This document shows, one piece after another, positions 10,882-59,492 of a DNA stretch of 61,567 nt. How positions within the stretch are numbered: the first letter of the stretch is position 1; each line of letters starts with the position of its first letter. The stretch spans positions 1-61,567 of the forward strand of contig JAHFED010000038.1 of NCBI GenBank assembly GCA_023248635.1, in the 5' to 3' direction. The position numbers were made by a program, and so were the translations under genes. The notes beneath the pieces are model-generated. The model was not told where the DNA came from. It made no database searches and saw only the letters and a list, made by a program, of their open reading frames with translations. The stretch is from Myxococcales bacterium (GTDB lineage: Bacteria > Myxococcota > UBA727 > VGSZ01).

Positions 10882-12312
<1,431 letters not shown>

Positions 12313-12313
12313 A

Positions 12314-12401
12314 TTCATCGCCGCCAGGCGATGAACCTGTAGACAATTCACCGACACGCGAAGCGCTGTCGGTGAATTCATCGCCTGGCGGCGATGAATT
12401 C
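12314..12401. repeat. Cluster of three palindromes between gatA and the HIT gene
   Basis: Three perfect hairpins lie side by side: TTCATCGCC-GCCA-GGCGATGAA (12314-12335), AATTCACCGACA with its complement TGTCGGTGAATT (12345-12378), and GAATTCATCGCC-TGGC-GGCGATGAATTC (12374-12401). The first and third have the same stem with loops GCCA and TGGC, which are complements of each other. They begin two bases after the gatA stop and end two bases before the AGGAGG ribosome site of the next gene, so they could act on the gatA/HIT transcript as attenuator or processing site. No T-run follows, so they are not simple terminators. Confidence 0.85.
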
Positions 12402-28969: not shown

Positions 28970-29307
28970 GCAGGCCCAGCATCGACGCCGTCGTTTCGGG
29001 CGGCCAGTTCTTCACCGATCAATTTCGGAGGATTTCTGGGGCCTGTCGTCGACGTCAGGCACCACTGTGGGTACCTTGGCGCCATGATCCCCGATCTCGC
29101 TGAACTTCGACTGCGGAGCGGGCTCGTTCAGCTCCGTCGGGGATGCTCTTTTCAAAGGTCTGATGCAGCTGATGCAGACCTCCCCCCGCGCCGGCGGAGC
29201 CGGACGCGGGGCCCCCCGCCAACTCCGCGTTCCGCGGGCCCGCTGCACGCGCATCATCCCGCGTCTTTTCCATCTCGGAACGCGGTCGAACATCAAGCGG
29301 ACGCGGG
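28970..29307. repeat. Modular structured repeat (M1-M2) upstream of a kinase gene
   Basis: No gene seen. M1 (29087-29144) folds as nested stems: ATCCCCGA with TCGGGGAT, inside it GCTGAAC with GTTCAGC, and a small central stem. M2 (29174-29310) contains a CCCCGCG/CGCGGGG stem around CCGGC/GCCGG, CCGCG/CGCGG, and a long-range pair ATCCCGCGTC with GACGCGGGAT. The same modules occur as M1-M1-M2-M2 at 57260-57677. M2 ends exactly over the possible ATG (29308) of the following kinase gene. Confidence 0.85.
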
Positions 29308-51174: not shown

Positions 51175-52383
51175 TCAGCGGTCGACGTCGCCCATGACGG
51201 GGTCGATGGAGGCGATGATCACCACCAGGTCGGCGATCAAGCCGCCGACGGCCATCTTCGAGATCGCTTGCAGGTTGGCAAACGAAGGCGTGCGCGCCCG
51301 CACCCGCACGGGCTTGCCCGAGCCGTCGCTGACGACGAGGAAACCCAATTCCCCGCGGGGGCTTTCGGTGAAGCCGTAGGCCTGGCCGGCGGGGGGCTTC
51401 ATGCCTTCGGTCCACAGCTTGAAGTGGTGGATGACGGCTTCCATCGACGTCGCCAGCTCCGACTTCGGCGGCGGCATCACTTTTCGGTCGCTGGTCTGCA
51501 CGGGACCTTTGATGTCCTTGAGCATGCGCAGCGCCTGGTCACAGATGCGAACGGCTTCACGCAGCTCACCGATGCGTACTTTATAACGGGCGTAACAATC
51601 TGCGCCCATATCGGTGATGACTTTGAAGTCGAACATCTCGTAGCCGGAGTAGGGATTCGTCTTTCTCAGATCGTGGGGGACGCCGGCGGCGCGCAGCAGA
51701 GGACCAGAGACCCCCAGGCGCACAGCGTCGTCGCCGTTGAGGATGCCAACGCCGATGGTGCGCTCTTTGAAGAAGGGATTTTCGGTAACGCAGTCTTCGT
51801 ATTCGTCGATGTGGCCGGGCATGCTGTCGACGAAGATGCGGCACTTCTTCAGCCAGTCGTCGTCGGCGTCACCCGCGAGGCCACCGGGTCGGATGAAGCT
51901 GCACATCATGCGCTGGCCCGTGAGCCACTCGAAGAGATCGAGCACGGCCTCACGCTCGCGCAGGCAGTAGAGAAAGACCGAGGTCACACCGAGGTCGATG
52001 GCGCCGGAGCCGATGGAGACCAGGTGGCTGTTGATGCGTGTGAGCTCGGCCAGCAGCACGCGCAAGATCACCGCGCGCTGGGGGATCTCGCAGCGCAACA
52101 GCTTTTCGACGGCGAGGGAGTAGGCCAGGTTATTGCCGAGGGGATTGAGATAATCCATTCGGTCGGTGACGGTGACACCCTGCACATACTTGAGCATCTC
52201 ACAGGTCTTCTCCATGCCGGTGTGGAGATAGCCAATGACCGGCGTAACCTTGCGTACGATTTCGCCGTCGAGATCGAGCTCCAGCCGCAACACGCCGTGG
52301 GTCGACGGGTGCTGGGGACCCATGTTGATGTGCAGCAGCTGGTCGCCGCCGTTGTCGCTTTGGTCTTGGGGCTGGGCGCTCAT
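51175..52383 (-). CDS. nuoD: NADH-quinone oxidoreductase subunit D
   Basis: 402 aa from ATG 52383. NuoD is the 49-kDa homologue lining the quinone chamber of complex I. Motifs: LLHINMGPQHPSTHGVLRL near the start, GYLHTGMEKTCE, DRMDYLNPLGNNLAYSLAVE, GVTSVFLYCLREREAVLD, RPGGLAGD and, at the end, SFANLQAISKMAVGGLIADL followed by IASIDPVMGDVDR. The length equals the unfused form (not NuoCD). No nuoC or nuoE is adjacent; it follows the EamA gene by 32 bases in the same direction. Confidence 0.96.
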   Translation of the reverse strand: MSAQPQDQSDNGGDQLLHINMGPQHPSTHGVLRLELDLDGEIVRKVTPVIGYLHTGMEKTCEMLKYVQGVTVTDRMDYLNPLGNNLAYSLAVEKLLRCEIPQRAVILRVLLAELTRINSHLVSIGSGAIDLGVTSVFLYCLREREAVLDLFEWLTGQRMMCSFIRPGGLAGDADDDWLKKCRIFVDSMPGHIDEYEDCVTENPFFKERTIGVGILNGDDAVRLGVSGPLLRAAGVPHDLRKTNPYSGYEMFDFKVITDMGADCYARYKVRIGELREAVRICDQALRMLKDIKGPVQTSDRKVMPPPKSELATSMEAVIHHFKLWTEGMKPPAGQAYGFTESPRGELGFLVVSDGSGKPVRVRARTPSFANLQAISKMAVGGLIADLVVIIASIDPVMGDVDR

Positions 52384-52415: not shown

Positions 52416-53324
52416 TCAAGGGCGCCGGGTCCGCAGAATGAGCACTACACCGACGATGATGACGGCGGCGGCGGCGACGACGCGGGAGGTGATTTGTTCG
52501 CCGCCGAGCAGGGCCCCCAGCATCACGGCCACCACCGGATTCACATAGGCATAGGTCGACACCCGCGACGCCGGCTCGACCTTGAGCAACCAGCCGTAGC
52601 AGCTGAAGCCCAACAGCGACCCAAACACAGCCAGGTACAAAAGCGCCAACCACGAAGCCGTCGTCGTCGTCGCCACCACCACCTGTTCACCCAGGGACCG
52701 GGCCAAAGCGAACTGCAGCACGGCTCCCACGAGCATCTGCAGGCCCGTCGCGGTGGCGTTGCTCGGGTGCGGGGGCAGGTGGCGGGGCAGCATCGATCCC
52801 AGCGCCCACGACGCCGACGCAAACACCAGCAGGAGCACGCCGCTGGTGGCGATCACGCCCGTGCTCGAAAAAGGATCGACCAAGATGCCGATGCCCACGG
52901 TGCCGAGCCCCAGTCCCAACCAGGTCGCCGGCCGGAAATCGCGCGACAACAGGGCAATAAACAAGGGCGTAATCGCGAGGATCAATGCACCTGCTCCCGA
53001 TGGCACCGTCTTCATCGCCCACATCACCGCCGCGTTGCCAAACACGAGCAAGAGCACGCCCTGACCCAAGGCCGCGAGCAGGTGACGTCGGGTGATGGCG
53101 GTCTTGTCGAAGAGGCGGCCCAGAGCGACCAGCAAGAGCCCAGAAAAAACGAAGCGCAACGCCGCCGTCGAAAAAGGCGGCAGCGTCTTTACCGCGATCT
53201 TCATTGCCAAATAAGTCGAGCCCCACACGGTGTAAAGAACGGCATAGGCCAGCAGCACCTGCACCCGAGGCGGCGTCGCTGTTTGCGTCGCTGTTTGCGT
53301 CGCTGTTTGCGTTGTTCGGGCCAT
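52416..53324 (-). CDS. EamA/DMT-family transporter
   Basis: 302 aa with ten predicted hydrophobic helices in two EamA repeats: YAVLYTVWGSTYLAMKIAV and LRFVFSGLLLVALGRLF begin the first, SGVLLLVFASASWALGSML the second, with TYAYVNPVVAVMLGALLGGE near the end. DMT proteins export metabolites or amino acids by exchange or proton drive. The N-terminus (residues 5-17) is a TQTATQTATQTA repeat encoded by a 12-base tandem repeat. It follows the MvdD-like gene by 22 bases, and so could export the product of the ATP-grasp pair. Confidence 0.88.
   Translation of the reverse strand: MARTTQTATQTATQTATPPRVQVLLAYAVLYTVWGSTYLAMKIAVKTLPPFSTAALRFVFSGLLLVALGRLFDKTAITRRHLLAALGQGVLLLVFGNAAVMWAMKTVPSGAGALILAITPLFIALLSRDFRPATWLGLGLGTVGIGILVDPFSSTGVIATSGVLLLVFASASWALGSMLPRHLPPHPSNATATGLQMLVGAVLQFALARSLGEQVVVATTTTASWLALLYLAVFGSLLGFSCYGWLLKVEPASRVSTYAYVNPVVAVMLGALLGGEQITSRVVAAAAVIIVGVVLILRTRRP
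53275..53310. repeat. 12-base tandem repeat within the EamA gene
   Basis: Three exact copies of GTCGCTGTTTGC on the plus strand encode the Thr-Gln-Thr-Ala repeats at the cytoplasmic N-terminus. Each copy change keeps the frame. Confidence 0.85.
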
Positions 53325-53346
53325 GGGCCGCTGTGCTCAGTCGCAC

Positions 53347-54345
53347 TCAGCGTTGCAACCACGCAGCGATGGCAGCGGCGATGGGCAGGCGGGCCGAGCT
53401 GAAGGCCTCGTCGAGCCAGAACCACTCGCCCCCCGCGTTGATCTCCAGAAACACCAGGCGCCCGTCGGGGGTCACGATGAAGTCGGCGGCGGCGTAGGAC
53501 AGGCCAAAGCTCTTGACCAGCTGCACCAAGGCCCGCGACGTCGACGACGGCAGCGTGTAGGGCGTCCATTTCTGCAGGAGGCCGACGCCGTCTTTGCGCC
53601 AATCGATGAGGGTTTCTTCGGAATGGCCCTGGCTGTCGATGGCCGCACAAAAGACCTCGTCGCCGACGACGGTGGCCCGCAATTCCAAGCGCTTGTCGAC
53701 GAGCGCTTGGAACTGCATCGGACACCAGCGCAGACCGCCCAGATCGCCCAGCGCGGCAACGTCGACGACGGAGGTGAAGACCACGTGCTCGAGCCCGTCG
53801 CGCATCACGGCGAAGCTCGACTGCATCTTGGTCACCACGCGCCCGCCGCAGACATCGAAGAAGGCCCGGACTTCGTCTTCGTCGTTGGAAAAGAGCGTCC
53901 TTGGGATGCTGAGACCCAGCGCGCGCGCCCGTTGCAGCTGCAGCTCTTTGTGGTCGGTGCGGCGCACGTCCTCGAGGCGATCCATCTGGGGCACGTCCAG
54001 GGCCGCGATCATGCCGTAGAGGGTGCGCCGGCTCTCGTCGACGGCGGGGACCCGCAGATCGCCCAACTCCACTGGCAAGCTGCCCCCGGCGTGAAAGCGG
54101 CGGTACCAAACCGAGACCACATCGGCGCCGTCGAAGCGACCCGCAGGGGTGACCCAGACGCGGCGGCTGTCGTCGTCGACGAAGCGGGTGCTGACTTGGA
54201 TGTCCATCGGGTAGCGATCGGTGTCGAGCCGCACCGGCACCATGCCTTGGGCCCGCAGCAGGCGCGAGACCACCTCGACGCAGGGATTGTCGTCGCTGCG
54301 GGTCACGATCAGACAGATCTTGCTCACGCGCTGCTTCTCCCACAT
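53347..54345 (-). CDS. MvdD-like ATP-grasp peptide ligase
   Basis: 332 aa from ATG 54345 (GTG 54327 also possible). The ATP-grasp enzymes MvdC and MvdD form ester and amide bonds between side chains of a ribosomal precursor peptide. The N-terminal third is a pre-ATP-grasp domain (VSKICLIVTRSDDN, VVSVWYRRF). The ATP-grasp core contains lysine RVVTKMQSSFAVM, QALVDKRLELRATVVGDEVF and the metal site VFLEINAGGEWFWLDE (Glu, Asn). This EINxxGEW pattern is characteristic of the graspetide group rather than of glutathione- or D-Ala ligases. It starts 13 bases after the partner gene. Confidence 0.85.
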   Translation of the reverse strand: MWEKQRVSKICLIVTRSDDNPCVEVVSRLLRAQGMVPVRLDTDRYPMDIQVSTRFVDDDSRRVWVTPAGRFDGADVVSVWYRRFHAGGSLPVELGDLRVPAVDESRRTLYGMIAALDVPQMDRLEDVRRTDHKELQLQRARALGLSIPRTLFSNDEDEVRAFFDVCGGRVVTKMQSSFAVMRDGLEHVVFTSVVDVAALGDLGGLRWCPMQFQALVDKRLELRATVVGDEVFCAAIDSQGHSEETLIDWRKDGVGLLQKWTPYTLPSSTSRALVQLVKSFGLSYAAADFIVTPDGRLVFLEINAGGEWFWLDEAFSSARLPIAAAIAAWLQR

Positions 54346-54358
54346 CGGCGCCACACCT

Positions 54359-55291
54359 TCACGCGCTGGTGGTGAGCACGCGTGCGAGGGATTGGGCGAT
54401 GGGCAGGCCCAGCTCGTGTTGCAAAAAGCCCCACTCCCCGGCGGGATTGATCTCCAAGAACCACTCCGCACCGTCGACGTCGACGAGCAGATCGACGGCA
54501 CCGGTGACCAGGCCGAGCTTCTTCACCAAGGCCAAGCAGCGCGCGCTGGTCTCGAGCGACAGGGTGTAGGGCCGCCAAGCTCCTGCTTTCTGGAGCCGCC
54601 AGTCTTGAGCGGTTGCTGCCAAAGCGCCCACAAAGACGTCGTCGCCGATCACTTGCACGCGCAGCTCGAGCTCTTTGTCGATGGCCTGCTGAAAGATCTG
54701 CGGGGCATGAATGACGTCGTCGACAAAGCGCAGATCGTCGTCGACGACCTTGGCTGTGTAGAAGAAGCCGGCGTCGCCTTTCATGCTGGCCACCAGGGGC
54801 GCGAGCAACTTGGTCACCACTTGGCCACCGGCGCCGTGCACGCCGTGGAAGAAGGCGCGCACCCGCTCGGCATCGTTGCTCACCAGGGTCTTGGGGATGA
54901 AAAAGCCCAGCTCCCCTGCCAGCCGCAGCTGCAGCACCTTGTCTTCGGCGGCGTCTTCGGCGTCGACGGCGTTGACGACGCGATGCCCCAAGTCCCGCAG
55001 CCAAGCGCCCATCAAGCTCCGACCCTGCGCCGCACAGCCCCAGCGCCACTGCTCATCGACGCGCAGCCCCAGCCCTGGCCAGCGACGACGACACCAAACA
55101 GCAGTGACGTCGTCGACGGCGACGCCGCCGGCGCGCAGGTGCCACTGGTTGTGCTCGATGGAGAGGGTGTGCGAGCCCGGAAAGAGATCCGAGTCCACGC
55201 GCAACACCGGGTGGCCCAAGGCGCGCACGGCGTCAGCGACGAGCTCGGGCACGTAGAAGTCGTCGCGGCAGGTCAGCAGGAGCACGGTCAT
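54359..55291 (-). CDS. MvdC-like ATP-grasp peptide ligase
   Basis: 310 aa from ATG 55291. Homologous to the next gene but clearly distinct: pre-ATP-grasp VLLLTCRDDFYVPELV and VTAVWCRRRWPGLG, then QVVTKLLAPLVASM, FQQAIDKELELRVQVIGDDV and metal motif WFLEINPAGEWGFLQHELG. Family rule: one enzyme of the pair makes the first rings, the other adds later rings or amides; which is which here cannot be decided. First gene of the presumed unit MvdC-MvdD-EamA. The 50-aa gene diverges from it across about 270 bases. Confidence 0.85.
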   Translation of the reverse strand: MTVLLLTCRDDFYVPELVADAVRALGHPVLRVDSDLFPGSHTLSIEHNQWHLRAGGVAVDDVTAVWCRRRWPGLGLRVDEQWRWGCAAQGRSLMGAWLRDLGHRVVNAVDAEDAAEDKVLQLRLAGELGFFIPKTLVSNDAERVRAFFHGVHGAGGQVVTKLLAPLVASMKGDAGFFYTAKVVDDDLRFVDDVIHAPQIFQQAIDKELELRVQVIGDDVFVGALAATAQDWRLQKAGAWRPYTLSLETSARCLALVKKLGLVTGAVDLLVDVDGAEWFLEINPAGEWGFLQHELGLPIAQSLARVLTTSA

Positions 55292-55560
55292 GACTTCGCC
55301 CTCTCTGCTCGATGGCACCGACGGGAGGGGAAGTCAGGGAGTCTCTGACACGTGGGTGGATGTCGTGGGAGCAGCCACAGTGTTTCCCAGATCAAGCCCT
55401 GGATCTGCGCAGAAAAAAAGCGCGCGCTGACGTCGACGAAAGGCTTTTTTCCCAGGGGCGGGGGCCCCGATCTGCGCTGTCCTCCTCAAGCCGGCGCCGA
55501 GCTGGTCGATGCCAGGACGCCCGGCAGGCACTCACGCGCTGCCCACAGGAGAGAGAAAAG
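55292..55560. promoter_or_regulatory. Shared upstream region of the ATP-grasp unit and the 50-aa peptide gene
   Basis: The gap carries an AGCGCGCGCT palindrome next to T7/A7 runs (55411-55430) and a second A/T run (55445-55451), possibly a terminator or regulatory hairpin. A 65-codon minus-strand frame (55334-55531) is present, but its third positions are much less GC-rich than real genes here. Confidence 0.4.
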
Positions 55561-55713
55561 ATGACCTTCCTCGCGGTGATCGTGGCCCTCCTTGCCAACC
55601 TCTTCGCTTTGTCGCCCCAGAGCGGCCACCGGCGCATTGACGACGGCCTGGCTGGCACCACCCTCTCTCAGGGTCCAAGCCTCACCACCTGCACCGGCAC
55701 CAGCTGCCGCTGA
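55561..55713 (+). CDS. 50-residue peptide, possible substrate of the ATP-grasp pair
   Basis: 50 aa. The ATG is preceded by CACAGGAGAGAGAAAAG, an excellent ribosome site, and 43 of 50 third positions are G or C, so it is very likely translated. The N-terminus is hydrophobic (TFLAVIVALLANLFAL), then SPQSGHRRIDDGLAG, and a C-terminal stretch rich in Thr, Ser and Cys (TTLSQGPSLTTCTGTSCR). The two Asp followed by several Thr/Ser would permit side-chain ester bonds as in graspetides, but known leader motifs (such as PFFxRFL) are absent. Alternatives: a small secreted or membrane peptide unrelated to the ligases. Experimental proof needed for the pairing. Confidence 0.72.
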   Translation: MTFLAVIVALLANLFALSPQSGHRRIDDGLAGTTLSQGPSLTTCTGTSCR

Positions 55714-55779
55714 GCCCGTCGCCACTCGCTGAGAGCGGGACGCTTGCGCCAGGCCCGAGCCAGAAGGCATCGTGCCTTG

Positions 55780-57228
55780 ATGCGAGCGCTGCAAAAGGCA
55801 GTGCCGGTGGCGCCCCCCGTGCGGCGCTCGGCAGGGCCCACAGATGGGGAAGCGGGGGTTCTGGTCGTCGACGACGACGTTGAACGTGGCGCTGGACTGG
55901 TGGCTGTGCTGGCCGCCGAGGGATGGGCAGCGCGGCTCACCCGCAGCGTCGCAAGTCCGGCAAATCTCGATCCGGACGTCGTCGTCGTCGCCCTGCAGGG
56001 GAAGGTGAGCGCGCCGCTGGTGGCGGAGCTGCTGCGGAGCGACCCGCGGCTGGCCGTGTTGGTGGTGGCCAGCGACCTCGATGCCGCCGCGCTGGGTTTG
56101 GGTGCGGGGGCCCACGATTTCGTCACGCTGCCGGTGGAGGCGACGGCCTTGGGGCTGCGCGTGCGACACCTCGTGGACGTGATGTTCCACCAACGTCGGC
56201 AAGAGCATGAGCGCCGGCTCGTGGGCGAGGAGCGCCTCCGGGGCGTGGCCGCGGGTCGCGGGCAGCTCGTCGGCGTCGGTCCGGCCATGAGGCCTGTGCA
56301 CGAGCTGGTGCGGCGGGTGTCCTCGAGCGACGTCGCCGTGCTGGTGCAGGGCGAAAGCGGCACGGGCAAGGAGCAGGTGGCGCGGGCCATCCACGAGGGA
56401 GGCCGTCGCCGCCATGCACCCCTCGTCGTCGTCAACTGCTCGGCCCTGCCGCCGGCGCAGCTCGAGGCGCGTTTTTTCGGAGAGCACCCACGACCCAGCG
56501 AGGGCGCTGACGCCGACGTCGCGCCGACCCGCGGCTTGTTCCTACAGGCCGACCAGGGGACGCTCTTTCTCGATGAGGTCGGCGCCCTGCCGCCAGAGAT
56601 GCAGGCCGCGCTCGTGCGGACGCTGCAGGAAAAAAAGGCGCGCCCCCTCGGCGGCGACGTCGACCTTCCCTTCGACGTGCGCCTGATCTGCGGGACCCAC
56701 CGCGATCTCGAGCCACAGCTCGCCCAGGGCCTTTTTCGCCACGACCTCCACACGATGGTCAACGTCGTCACCATCACGCTGCCGGCGCTGCGCTTCCGCG
56801 GCAACGACGTCATCGAATTGGCCCATCACTTCCTGGCGCGCTTCGTCGAGCGCGACGGCCGCACGCCTCTGGGTCTCTCCCCCGCCGTCGTCGACCGCCT
56901 CTTGGCCTATCATTGGCCCGGCAACGTACGCGAGCTGGAGAACAGCCTCGAGCGCGCCGCCGCCCTGGCCCAAAGCGATCGCGTCACACTCGACGACCTG
57001 CACGAGCGCATCCGCAGCCACCGCCTCGAAGACGTCGTCGTCGCCGAAGCCGAAGCCGACATCGTCAGCCTCGACGTGCTCGAGGAGCGCTACATCCGCC
57101 GGGTGCTCAAGTTGTTGGGCGGCAACAAGTCCAAGGCGGCCGATCTGCTGGGGCTCGATCGACGAACGCTGCACCGTCGACTCGAAAAATACGACGCCGA
57201 CCGCGCCGAAAAAAGCAGCTCTTCATGA
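55780..57228 (+). CDS. NtrC-like AAA+ regulator with pseudo-receiver and no GAFTGA
   Basis: 482 aa from ATG 55780. The receiver (about 26-135) keeps VLVVDDD but the phospho-acceptor position reads VVVALQGK (Ala for Asp) and the Lys of TKP is Leu (FVTLP), so it cannot be phosphorylated in the usual way. The AAA+ part has GESGTGKEQVARAIH, QGTLFLDEVGALP and FRHDLHTMVNVVTITLPALR. The sigma-54 contact loop is replaced by EHPRPSEGADADVAPTRGL, with no GAFTGA. A Fis-type helix-turn-helix ends the protein (GGNKSKAADLLGLDRRTLHRRL). Placed 66 bases after the 50-aa gene, it may control the ATP-grasp locus. Confidence 0.88.
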   Translation: MRALQKAVPVAPPVRRSAGPTDGEAGVLVVDDDVERGAGLVAVLAAEGWAARLTRSVASPANLDPDVVVVALQGKVSAPLVAELLRSDPRLAVLVVASDLDAAALGLGAGAHDFVTLPVEATALGLRVRHLVDVMFHQRRQEHERRLVGEERLRGVAAGRGQLVGVGPAMRPVHELVRRVSSSDVAVLVQGESGTGKEQVARAIHEGGRRRHAPLVVVNCSALPPAQLEARFFGEHPRPSEGADADVAPTRGLFLQADQGTLFLDEVGALPPEMQAALVRTLQEKKARPLGGDVDLPFDVRLICGTHRDLEPQLAQGLFRHDLHTMVNVVTITLPALRFRGNDVIELAHHFLARFVERDGRTPLGLSPAVVDRLLAYHWPGNVRELENSLERAAALAQSDRVTLDDLHERIRSHRLEDVVVAEAEADIVSLDVLEERYIRRVLKLLGGNKSKAADLLGLDRRTLHRRLEKYDADRAEKSSSS

Positions 57229-57767
57229 TCGGAAAATACCCAGATATTGCGTCTAACTTATCCCCGATCTCGGTGAACTTCGACCGCGGAGCGGTCTCGT
57301 TCAGCTCCGTCGGGGATGCTCTTCTGGGAGGTCTGATCCCCGATCTCGCTGAACTTCGACCGCGGAGCGGTCTCGTTCATCTCCCTCGGGGATGCTCTTC
57401 TGGGAGGTCTGGTGCAGACCTCCCCCCGCGCCGGCAGAGCCGGACGCGGGGCCCCCCACCAACTCCGCGTTCCGCGGGCGCGCTTCACGCGCACCATCCC
57501 GCATCTTTCCCATCTCGGAACGCGGTCGAACATCAAGCGGACGGGGGATGATGCAGACCTCCCCCGCGCCGGCGGAGCCGGACGCGGGGCCCCACCAACT
57601 CCGCGTTCCGCGGGCGCGCTTCATGCGCATCATCCCGCGTCTTTCCCAACTCGGAACGCGGTCGAACATCAAGGGGATCAGATCAGCAGCTCGTCTACCG
57701 AATCCCGCATCAGCTGCAGAAATGGCGTACGGGATCGGAATGCCCGCTCGAAGTGACACACTCGTAA
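57229..57767. repeat. Modular structured repeats M1-M1-M2-M2
   Basis: No gene found in this 539-base gap. Two M1 copies (57260-57317, 57336-57393) are followed by two M2 copies (57414-57550, 57553-57677). M1 is ATCCCCGA...TCGGGGAT enclosing GTGAAC or GCTGAAC with GTTCA(G/T)C and CCGC-GGA-GCGG. M1 ends with the linker GCTCTTCTGGGAGGTCTG, which pairs with CAGACCT at the start of M2. The last 90 bases before the FHA protein gene are lower in GC and hold nothing recognisable. Confidence 0.88.
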
Positions 57768-59492
57768 TCAACGACCGTCAGCGCGTAGAGTTAACAATGC
57801 GCAGGTCGCCTCTAGCATCATCAAAGCAACATCATCGAAGCGCCCGACCCGTCGGATCAAGATTGCAATGGCCACCGTCTGACCGCGCTCGAAGATGGGC
57901 GCCAACACCACGCTCCAACGATCTTCGACGTTGACCCGCACCGTCGTCGCCAAGCTGAGCTGACCCGGCATCGCGCGCTCCATCGCCGGCAAGGTTCCCG
58001 ACAAGAGCTGGGCTTCGTGCGCCGTCGCTGCTTCGAAGACAGGTTGGTTGTCCTTCACCTTGATGACGAGACGATGATCGGCCTTCAGCACGTCAGCGAC
58101 CAAACCGATGGCGTCGAACCTCAGCGTTTCGGGATTGCCAGCGCGTCCGGCGAACAAGGGTGCGAGCCGCGACAGCAGTTGCAGGCGCTCGAAGGCGAAG
58201 CCGGCGTCTTTTTCGGCGAGGTTCTGGGGCTGCGCCTGGCGCTGGGGCGGATGGCTCACCTCGACGTCGCCGAAGGCCCCGCGCACGGGTGAGCCGACCA
58301 TGCGACCCGCCTGCTGTGCCGGGATTTGGCTGACGGCAGCCACCGGGCCTTCGACGCGCAAAATGGTGTCGCCGATTTCCAGCCGGTCGCCGGGAAAGAG
58401 CTGCCGCGACCGGACGTCGATGCCGTTGACCCGGATGCCGTTGCGGCTCGCGAGATCTTCGACCTCGAGGTAGTCGCCGCTGCGGCGCACCAGCGCATGG
58501 CGACGGGACACGCGGGCGTCGTCCAGCGCGAAGCCTTCGCCCGCCACCCGGCCCAACAAGAGCTCGCCTTCAGGGATGTCGACGCGCACGCCCTGTTGGC
58601 GGCCGTCTTCGACCAACAAGATCGGTTGGGAGGGCTGCAAATGGCGCAGCTTGGGCAGCAAGGTGGCGCCGGCCTGCAGCAGCTCAACATAGGTCGCAAA
58701 GCGCCGCTCAGGATCTTTGGCCACCAACCTCGAGACGAACCCCTCGAGCTCGGGCGGGGCCCGCGGCGCCTGCGCCTTCAGCGAGGGAAAGGGCTCGTGC
58801 AGATGGCACGCAAGCAGGGCGTCCGCCGACGCCGTTCCGTAGGGCGGACGCCCCACCAGCAGCTCAAAGAGCGTGCAGCCCAAGGCGTAGATGTCGGCGC
58901 GGTGGTCCGCCATCTTGCCGGCCACGATCTCGGGAGCGACATAGGCCGGGTGCCCGGCGATGGTGCGGCCCTGGGCAGTCTGCGTCGCCGGCGACAGCCC
59001 GAAGGCCGTGACTTTCACTTCACCTTTGACCCGCAGCAGGTGACGAGGCCGCACGTCGCCGTGCAACACCCCCTTCTTCATCGCAGCGTCGAGCCCGCTG
59101 GCGGCGTCGAGGGCCACCCGCAAGGCCGCCTGCGGCACCAGAGTCTTTTCCCGCTTGAGCACGCTCTCGACGTCCTCGCCGTCGACCCAGTCCAAGACGA
59201 TGTAGGGCGTCGGTCCATCGCGGCCCGCCCGCAACACCGGCACCACGTGCGGGGAGGCGACGCCGACGAGGGCGCTGCCAAAGGCCAAGAAGCGTTCGAC
59301 GTTGCGGGGCTCCTCGTCGAAGGGCGGCTTCATCAGCTTGACGACGACGGTCTTGCCCAGGCTCAGGTCGACGGCGCGGTACAGGCGCGAGTTCGACGAC
59401 GACAAACGGGCTTCGATCCGGCACGTCCCGATGGTCTTTGGATCTGGCATGTTGGCGCCAGAGAGGGTGACCGGATTCTCGGAGTCGTTCAC
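57768..59492 (-). CDS. Pseudokinase with FHA domain and C-terminal GAF-like region
   Basis: 574 aa (ATG 59492; ATG 59450 also possible). Residues 18-285 are a kinase fold that keeps Lys (VVVKLMKPP) but has HGDVRPRHLL for HRDxKPxN, losing Asn, and TAFGLS for DFG, losing the Mg-binding Asp; it is very probably inactive. Residues about 300-385 are an intact FHA domain: LLLGRVAGEGF, VSRRHALVRR, SRNGIRVNG, which binds phosphothreonine. The last 150 residues resemble a GAF domain (LVIKVKDNQPVFEAA...). Such a protein would read phosphorylation by other kinases instead of making it. It lies beside the M1/M2 repeats. Confidence 0.86.
   Translation of the reverse strand: MNDSENPVTLSGANMPDPKTIGTCRIEARLSSSNSRLYRAVDLSLGKTVVVKLMKPPFDEEPRNVERFLAFGSALVGVASPHVVPVLRAGRDGPTPYIVLDWVDGEDVESVLKREKTLVPQAALRVALDAASGLDAAMKKGVLHGDVRPRHLLRVKGEVKVTAFGLSPATQTAQGRTIAGHPAYVAPEIVAGKMADHRADIYALGCTLFELLVGRPPYGTASADALLACHLHEPFPSLKAQAPRAPPELEGFVSRLVAKDPERRFATYVELLQAGATLLPKLRHLQPSQPILLVEDGRQQGVRVDIPEGELLLGRVAGEGFALDDARVSRRHALVRRSGDYLEVEDLASRNGIRVNGIDVRSRQLFPGDRLEIGDTILRVEGPVAAVSQIPAQQAGRMVGSPVRGAFGDVEVSHPPQRQAQPQNLAEKDAGFAFERLQLLSRLAPLFAGRAGNPETLRFDAIGLVADVLKADHRLVIKVKDNQPVFEAATAHEAQLLSGTLPAMERAMPGQLSLATTVRVNVEDRWSVVLAPIFERGQTVAIAILIRRVGRFDDVALMMLEATCALLTLRADGR

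Follow-up and report, generated by a model that had tools for sequence, protein, structure and literature searches.

The stretch of DNA analyzed here (the window: 61,567 nucleotides of a Myxococcales bacterium, contig JAHFED010000038.1, here C62) carries two adjacent genes for ATP-grasp ligases that, by sequence, belong to the microviridin (graspetide) MvdC/MvdD type. We consider it rather likely that they are the modifying enzymes of a multi-core microviridin pathway with dispersed genes, whose precursor would be a five-core protein encoded on another contig, C105. Its components may be distributed over three loci: the ligases, the C105 cores and a leader-like helix of a protein on a third contig, C124. 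More tentatively, and with less than even confidence, we propose a natural split precursor, in which the C124 leader protein would activate the window ligases in trans to cyclize the five C105 cores. What the sequences show is the genes themselves, five cores but no leader on C105, a match to the leader on C124, and the position of the ligases in a phylogeny; from these observations we infer which enzymes act on which substrate.

A sequence-only reading of positions 52416-57228 had described two MvdC/MvdD-like ligases and an EamA exporter on one strand, with a 50-amino-acid (aa) open reading frame (ORF) and an AAA+ regulator divergent from them. On checking this region, we found all of these genes where they had been described. 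The two ligases are as follows:

54359-55291, minus strand: MvdC-like ATP-grasp ligase (TIGR04185 248.4 bits, PF21068 48.1 bits), the expected macrolactam former (MdnB type)
53347-54345, minus strand: MvdD-like ATP-grasp ligase (TIGR04184 355.9 bits, PF21068 90.6 bits), the expected macrolactone former (MdnC type)

Both proteins exceeded the PF21068 gathering score of 27 for graspetide ligases, the TIGR04184 match spanned residues 8-325 of MvdD, and the nearest solved structures were the microviridin ligases 5ig8 for MvdC (7.1e-51) and 5ig9 for MvdD (6.7e-69). The C-terminal EINxxGEW motifs reported earlier could be read as EINPAGEW in MvdC and EINAGGEW in MvdD, and the profiles and structures agree with the graspetide-type pair that had been proposed from them. 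Because the scores were below the equivalog cut-offs (248.4 against 425 for TIGR04185 and 355.9 against 475 for TIGR04184), the enzymes are designated only as MvdC-like and MvdD-like. The minus-strand gene order is MvdC, MvdD and EamA, with NuoD downstream, and 13 bases separate the MvdC stop from the MvdD start. A scan of the window found no precursor with a PFFxRFL leader, just as the sequence-only reading had noted, and the window thus lacks a microviridin gene cluster in the sense of a precursor gene beside the ligases, C105 being another contig.

A core-pattern search of the whole genome revealed five clustered matches on C105, which lie in one ORF:

L091:1247-2827: microviridin-type precursor of 526 aa with five cores (NF033738 65.7 bits, Inhibitor_I10 50.5 bits)

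The NCBIfam model NF033738 (cut-off 26 bits) matched this protein in five stretches, the best of which corresponded to core positions 31-45 of 46, and the second match was to the Pfam family Inhibitor_I10. The protein consists of a helical-looking N-terminal region, five T-x-K-[F/A]-P-S-D-x-E-D cores and a C-terminal globular domain, and a strong ribosome-binding sequence precedes the frame. All five cores agree with the microviridin pattern T-x-K-x-P-S-D-x-[DE]-[DE] and contain the lactam Lys. No PFFxRFL leader was found on C105, where the best leader score was 0.2 (25-35 in the known leaders tested); a diverged leader within the protein was also considered and rejected, since nothing scored above shuffles. 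Because the C105 protein lacks this leader, we refer to it as microviridin-type and not as a standard precursor. It had been suggested that the substrate class would be new, unless a different, distant precursor came to light. The C105 protein is such a distant precursor, and on this sequence evidence the substrate belongs to a class already known.

The C105 gene is flanked by an RsfS-like gene and a gene for a peptidoglycan-binding-type protein (both read by eye), and an ATP-grasp search of the genome gave no match on this contig. An overlap between the ends of C105 and the window was rejected, as the ends had no 15-mers in common. The C-terminal domain of the C105 protein recurs at the N-terminus of several multi-core precursors. 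This unnamed domain of ∼105 residues (one helix and four strands; L091:2282-2605) is common to multi-core precursors and coreless proteins, and it was also observed in L072, L073, L076-L078, L080, L094-L096, L103 and L118. Its modeled fold (predicted local distance difference test score, pLDDT, 84) had no Foldseek match at E<=0.001, and the best candidate, CENP-N, reached a VIA-align Z of 5.2, which is too low to name the fold. L118 (G001:C11), which has no cores, is homologous to the N-terminal as well as the C-terminal part of the C105 protein.

A near-perfect leader, RPFFARFLEHQ, was identified at the end of a 132-aa protein on C124, whose C-terminal end reads RPFFARFLEHQKR (C-terminal stretch ...AVRPFFARFLEHQKR). 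The protein contains no core, and its motif is the only PFFxRFL site in the genome besides that of a canonical microviridin locus on contig C78, which consists of a C39-type ABC transporter (by eye), a short precursor with the leader PFFARFLEGQ and two KYPSD cores, MvdC and MvdD. With a position-specific scoring matrix, the C124 leader scored 30.2, which is within the known-leader range, whereas the best of 2000 shuffles scored 18.6. The frame looks coding (GC by codon position 0.80, 0.51 and 0.83). In 195 genomes of the phylum, the PFFxRFLE-type DNA pattern had nine matches (six precursors, the C124 protein and two PFFxRFFE sites without cores), and its reversed control had five. Homology of the N-terminal part of the C124 protein to the N-domains of precursors was rejected, as only the leader motif aligned.

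The same dispersed repeat occurs on C105, C124, C78 and the window contig, and these four contigs are therefore probably from one organism. In addition, the window and C105 have 105 distinct 24-mers in common. The repeat, GAATTCATCGCCnnnnGGCGATGAA, is present in ∼190 copies genome-wide, often ∼63 bases apart (window 12311-12401, C78, C105, C124 and others). Another GC-rich element is also repeated (CCGGACGCGGGGCCCC...CCGCGTTCCGCGG); it translates as RGTRSW-type ORFs and was observed in the window (57258-57771 and 29012-29296) and at the end of C105 (3′ end of L091).

Further evidence came from a phylogenetic tree of 30 ligases, in which the window MvdD grouped with eight MvdDs encoded beside multi-core precursors (support 97/99), its sister being the MvdD of L060 from G015 (93/92), and the C78 MvdD fell outside this clade. 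Of 24 discriminating columns, 15 were multi-like and 4 short-like in the window MvdD. For MvdC, a group of 18 enzymes of short precursors left out the window protein as well as those of the multi-core loci (94/89, not starred). In scans of genome contigs, the window MvdC, used as a single sequence, had no match; MvdD, used as an alignment, matched 17 loci. In the multi-core relatives, cores contain Lys where MvdC is present (one such locus, L076, has a few Arg) and Arg or Ala where it is absent (the loci compared were L077, L078, L080, L147 and L152 on one side and L060, L072, L073, L076, L138-L140 and L143 on the other), although these loci are mutually related and the counts are hence not independent. 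The presence of Lys in all C105 cores accords with the two ligases of the window.

Separation of a precursor from ligases does not seem restricted to this genome. A short leader-bearing precursor was found at 6.57 Mb in G076 (L107) and at 9.63 Mb in G080 (L105), with ligase pairs at 3.63 and 0.28 Mb, respectively; in both cases a single contig is listed for the genome, and the positions are those of the ligase pairs found. As judged from these pairs, precursors away from ligases occur in relatives, and it is the leaderless state that sets C105 apart. Neither a C124 homolog nor a PFFxRFLE site was detected in three genomes of the same family (G001, G002 and G003). The absence is incomplete in G001, because a single MvdD-like ligase and coreless homologs of the C105 domains are present there.

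If the window ligases act on the C105 protein in trans, the roles of MdnC and MdnB suggest that MvdD would form two side-chain esters in each core (Thr to Asp and Ser to Glu) and that MvdC would form one amide in each (Lys to the last acidic residue). The whole C105 protein might thus lose as many as 15 molecules of water (about -270 Da). It is known that microviridin ligases need a PFFARFL-type leader helix and that AMdnC can be activated in vitro by a leader supplied in trans (PMC5934393), which is why we suppose that the window ligases could act on C105 in the same manner. Since C105 has no such helix, another protein would have to supply the leader in trans, the C124 protein being the most plausible source and the leader of the C78 precursor the alternative.

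The following genes are neighbors of the ligases:

52416-53324, minus strand: EamA/DMT-type transporter (PF00892 123 bits), downstream of the ligases
51175-52380, minus strand: NuoD, NADH dehydrogenase 49 kDa subunit (PF00346 354 bits), downstream of EamA, given for context only
55561-55713, plus strand: 50-aa ORF P0001 with a hydrophobic N-terminus and no family match, the candidate substrate of the sequence-only reading
55744-57228, plus strand: NtrC-type AAA+ regulator (PF00158 161 bits, PF25601 and PF02954, a Fis-type helix-turn-helix)

The EamA gene is present, as had been noted, but a dedicated role in export is not supported. In G003, a genome of the same genus, EamA is also found near NuoD on a 6.2-kb contig that shows no ligases, so EamA is probably not dedicated to the window ligases and we rejected it as their exporter. 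NuoD itself is 85% and 83% identical in two other genomes of the genus. The regulator contains a sigma54 interaction domain (PF00158, cut-off 20.2 bits). A GAFTGA loop, which contacts sigma54 and is expected in sigma54 activators, was not seen in its translation (55744-57228), where the corresponding stretch reads FFGEHPRPSEGADADVAPT. There were 22 sigma54 -24/-12 sites in the window (27 expected), none of them convincing near the ligases, and 1 on C105 (4 expected). We count both EamA and the regulator as neighbors only, not as established members of the pathway.

Several points weigh against the proposed pathway. The C105, C124 and ligase loci are joined by no physical link, and the genome is a draft of 135 contigs (96.7% complete, 2.9% contamination), so that a precursor could lie in a gap. 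The window MvdC forms a long branch that is not firmly placed, and its discriminating columns are tied (five multi-like and five short-like). With NF033738, the C124 protein reaches only 17.8 bits against a cut-off of 26, over positions 1-11 only (a short motif), and the rest of it had no homolog in its order. Furthermore, C105 could be a substrate of the C78 pair rather than of the window pair. A related explanation is that the window pair are spare copies acting on the two-core C78 precursor, with C105 modified by the C78 pair or by none. The C78 locus is complete, and the leader for activation is present there; however, it is the window MvdD and not that of C78 that groups with the multi-core-associated ligases, and the leaderless five-core protein would be left without a specialized ligase. 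We regard this explanation as unlikely. It also appears quite unlikely that the leader-like end of C124 is a chance match and that the window ligases process C105 leader-free, via its domains or cores. The C124 protein has no link to the ligases, the two PFFxRFFE sites outside precursors show that near-matches arise by chance, and the domain that C105 has in common with multi-core precursors might serve recognition. On the other hand, the C124 motif scores like known leaders and far above shuffles, in a coding frame and in a genome whose multi-core precursor has no leader, and the relatives with a complete 5′ end retain a leader on the precursor.

Two other explanations seem very improbable. 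The 50-aa ORF adjacent to and divergent from the ligases, proposed earlier as their substrate, may be a real gene, because it is preceded by a Shine-Dalgarno-like GGAGAG and has a GC content at third codon positions of 0.86. Nevertheless, no convincing homolog was found in the 195 genomes at E<=1 (the best foreign match, 0.002, was short and scattered), no core motif was present, the best leader score was negative, and there is no acidic residue beyond position 28. On these grounds it was rejected as the substrate. As for a decaying or silent ligase operon that has no current substrate, one could point to the long MvdC branch, to altered conserved columns (14 of 73 in MvdC and 12 of 108 in MvdD) and to the same-genus genomes, in which no such ligase was found in G002 and only a weak ATP-grasp match in G003. 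Against this, the two frames are uninterrupted and coding in composition, and ATP-grasp motifs such as D-W-R, E-L-R and E-I-N are kept.

Two further loci were observed during this analysis. In G033, a precursor-like ORF (L075:6430-6768) lies beside a single ATP-grasp; it has PFFAQFLN as its leader and contains two repeats with Cys (KAGTCGNDCDSD and KAGKCGNDCDTD). L146:6001-6930 encodes an MvdD-like ligase, and no precursor was recognized in this 13-kb locus.

Genome mining for ribosomally synthesized and post-translationally modified peptides assumes that precursor and enzymes are adjacent and that leader and core are on one polypeptide. If the dispersed pathway with a split precursor is true, substrates of this kind would be hidden from such searches, and the trans-activation of microviridin ligases, an in vitro result in the literature examined, would turn out to have an equivalent in nature. 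With multi-core cages inside a larger protein, the question also arises whether the modified protein acts as a whole, for example as a multivalent protease inhibitor, a function that we only infer.

The system resembles microviridin biosynthesis (MdnA/MdnB/MdnC; MvdC/MvdD) in its paired ligases near 5ig8 and 5ig9 and in its core pattern. It differs in that the precursor is not adjacent, has five cores and lacks a leader, and that no acetyltransferase or ABC transporter was recognized near the window ligases. Several microviridin cores on one polypeptide are also known from AMdnA of Anabaena PCC7120, whose ligase AMdnC is the one activated by a leader in trans; AMdnA, however, carries three cores together with a leader of its own, all within one cluster, whereas here five cores are in a larger protein without a leader (PMC5934393). 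Corallotide, a group 15 graspetide of Corallococcus, likewise derives from an exceptionally large precursor containing five motif repeats, but it involves one synthetase and an oxygenase partner in one conserved cluster, and other chemistry (PMC13097080). Leader repositioning in fuscimiditide indicates that graspetide leaders tolerate displacement, although that system is engineered and the leader is still on the same polypeptide (PMC13003496). In the open-licence literature searched, we saw no account of a graspetide leader that is separate in nature. Finally, the large multi-core precursors found here in Myxococcota and other metagenome-assembled genomes (L060, L072, L073, L076-L078, L080, L138, L140, L147 and L152) have the same core type and related MvdDs, and several contain the C105-type domain. 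Unlike the arrangement described here, their precursor genes are directly upstream of the ligases and encode a PFF-type (PFFxRFLE-type) leader wherever the 5′ end is complete.

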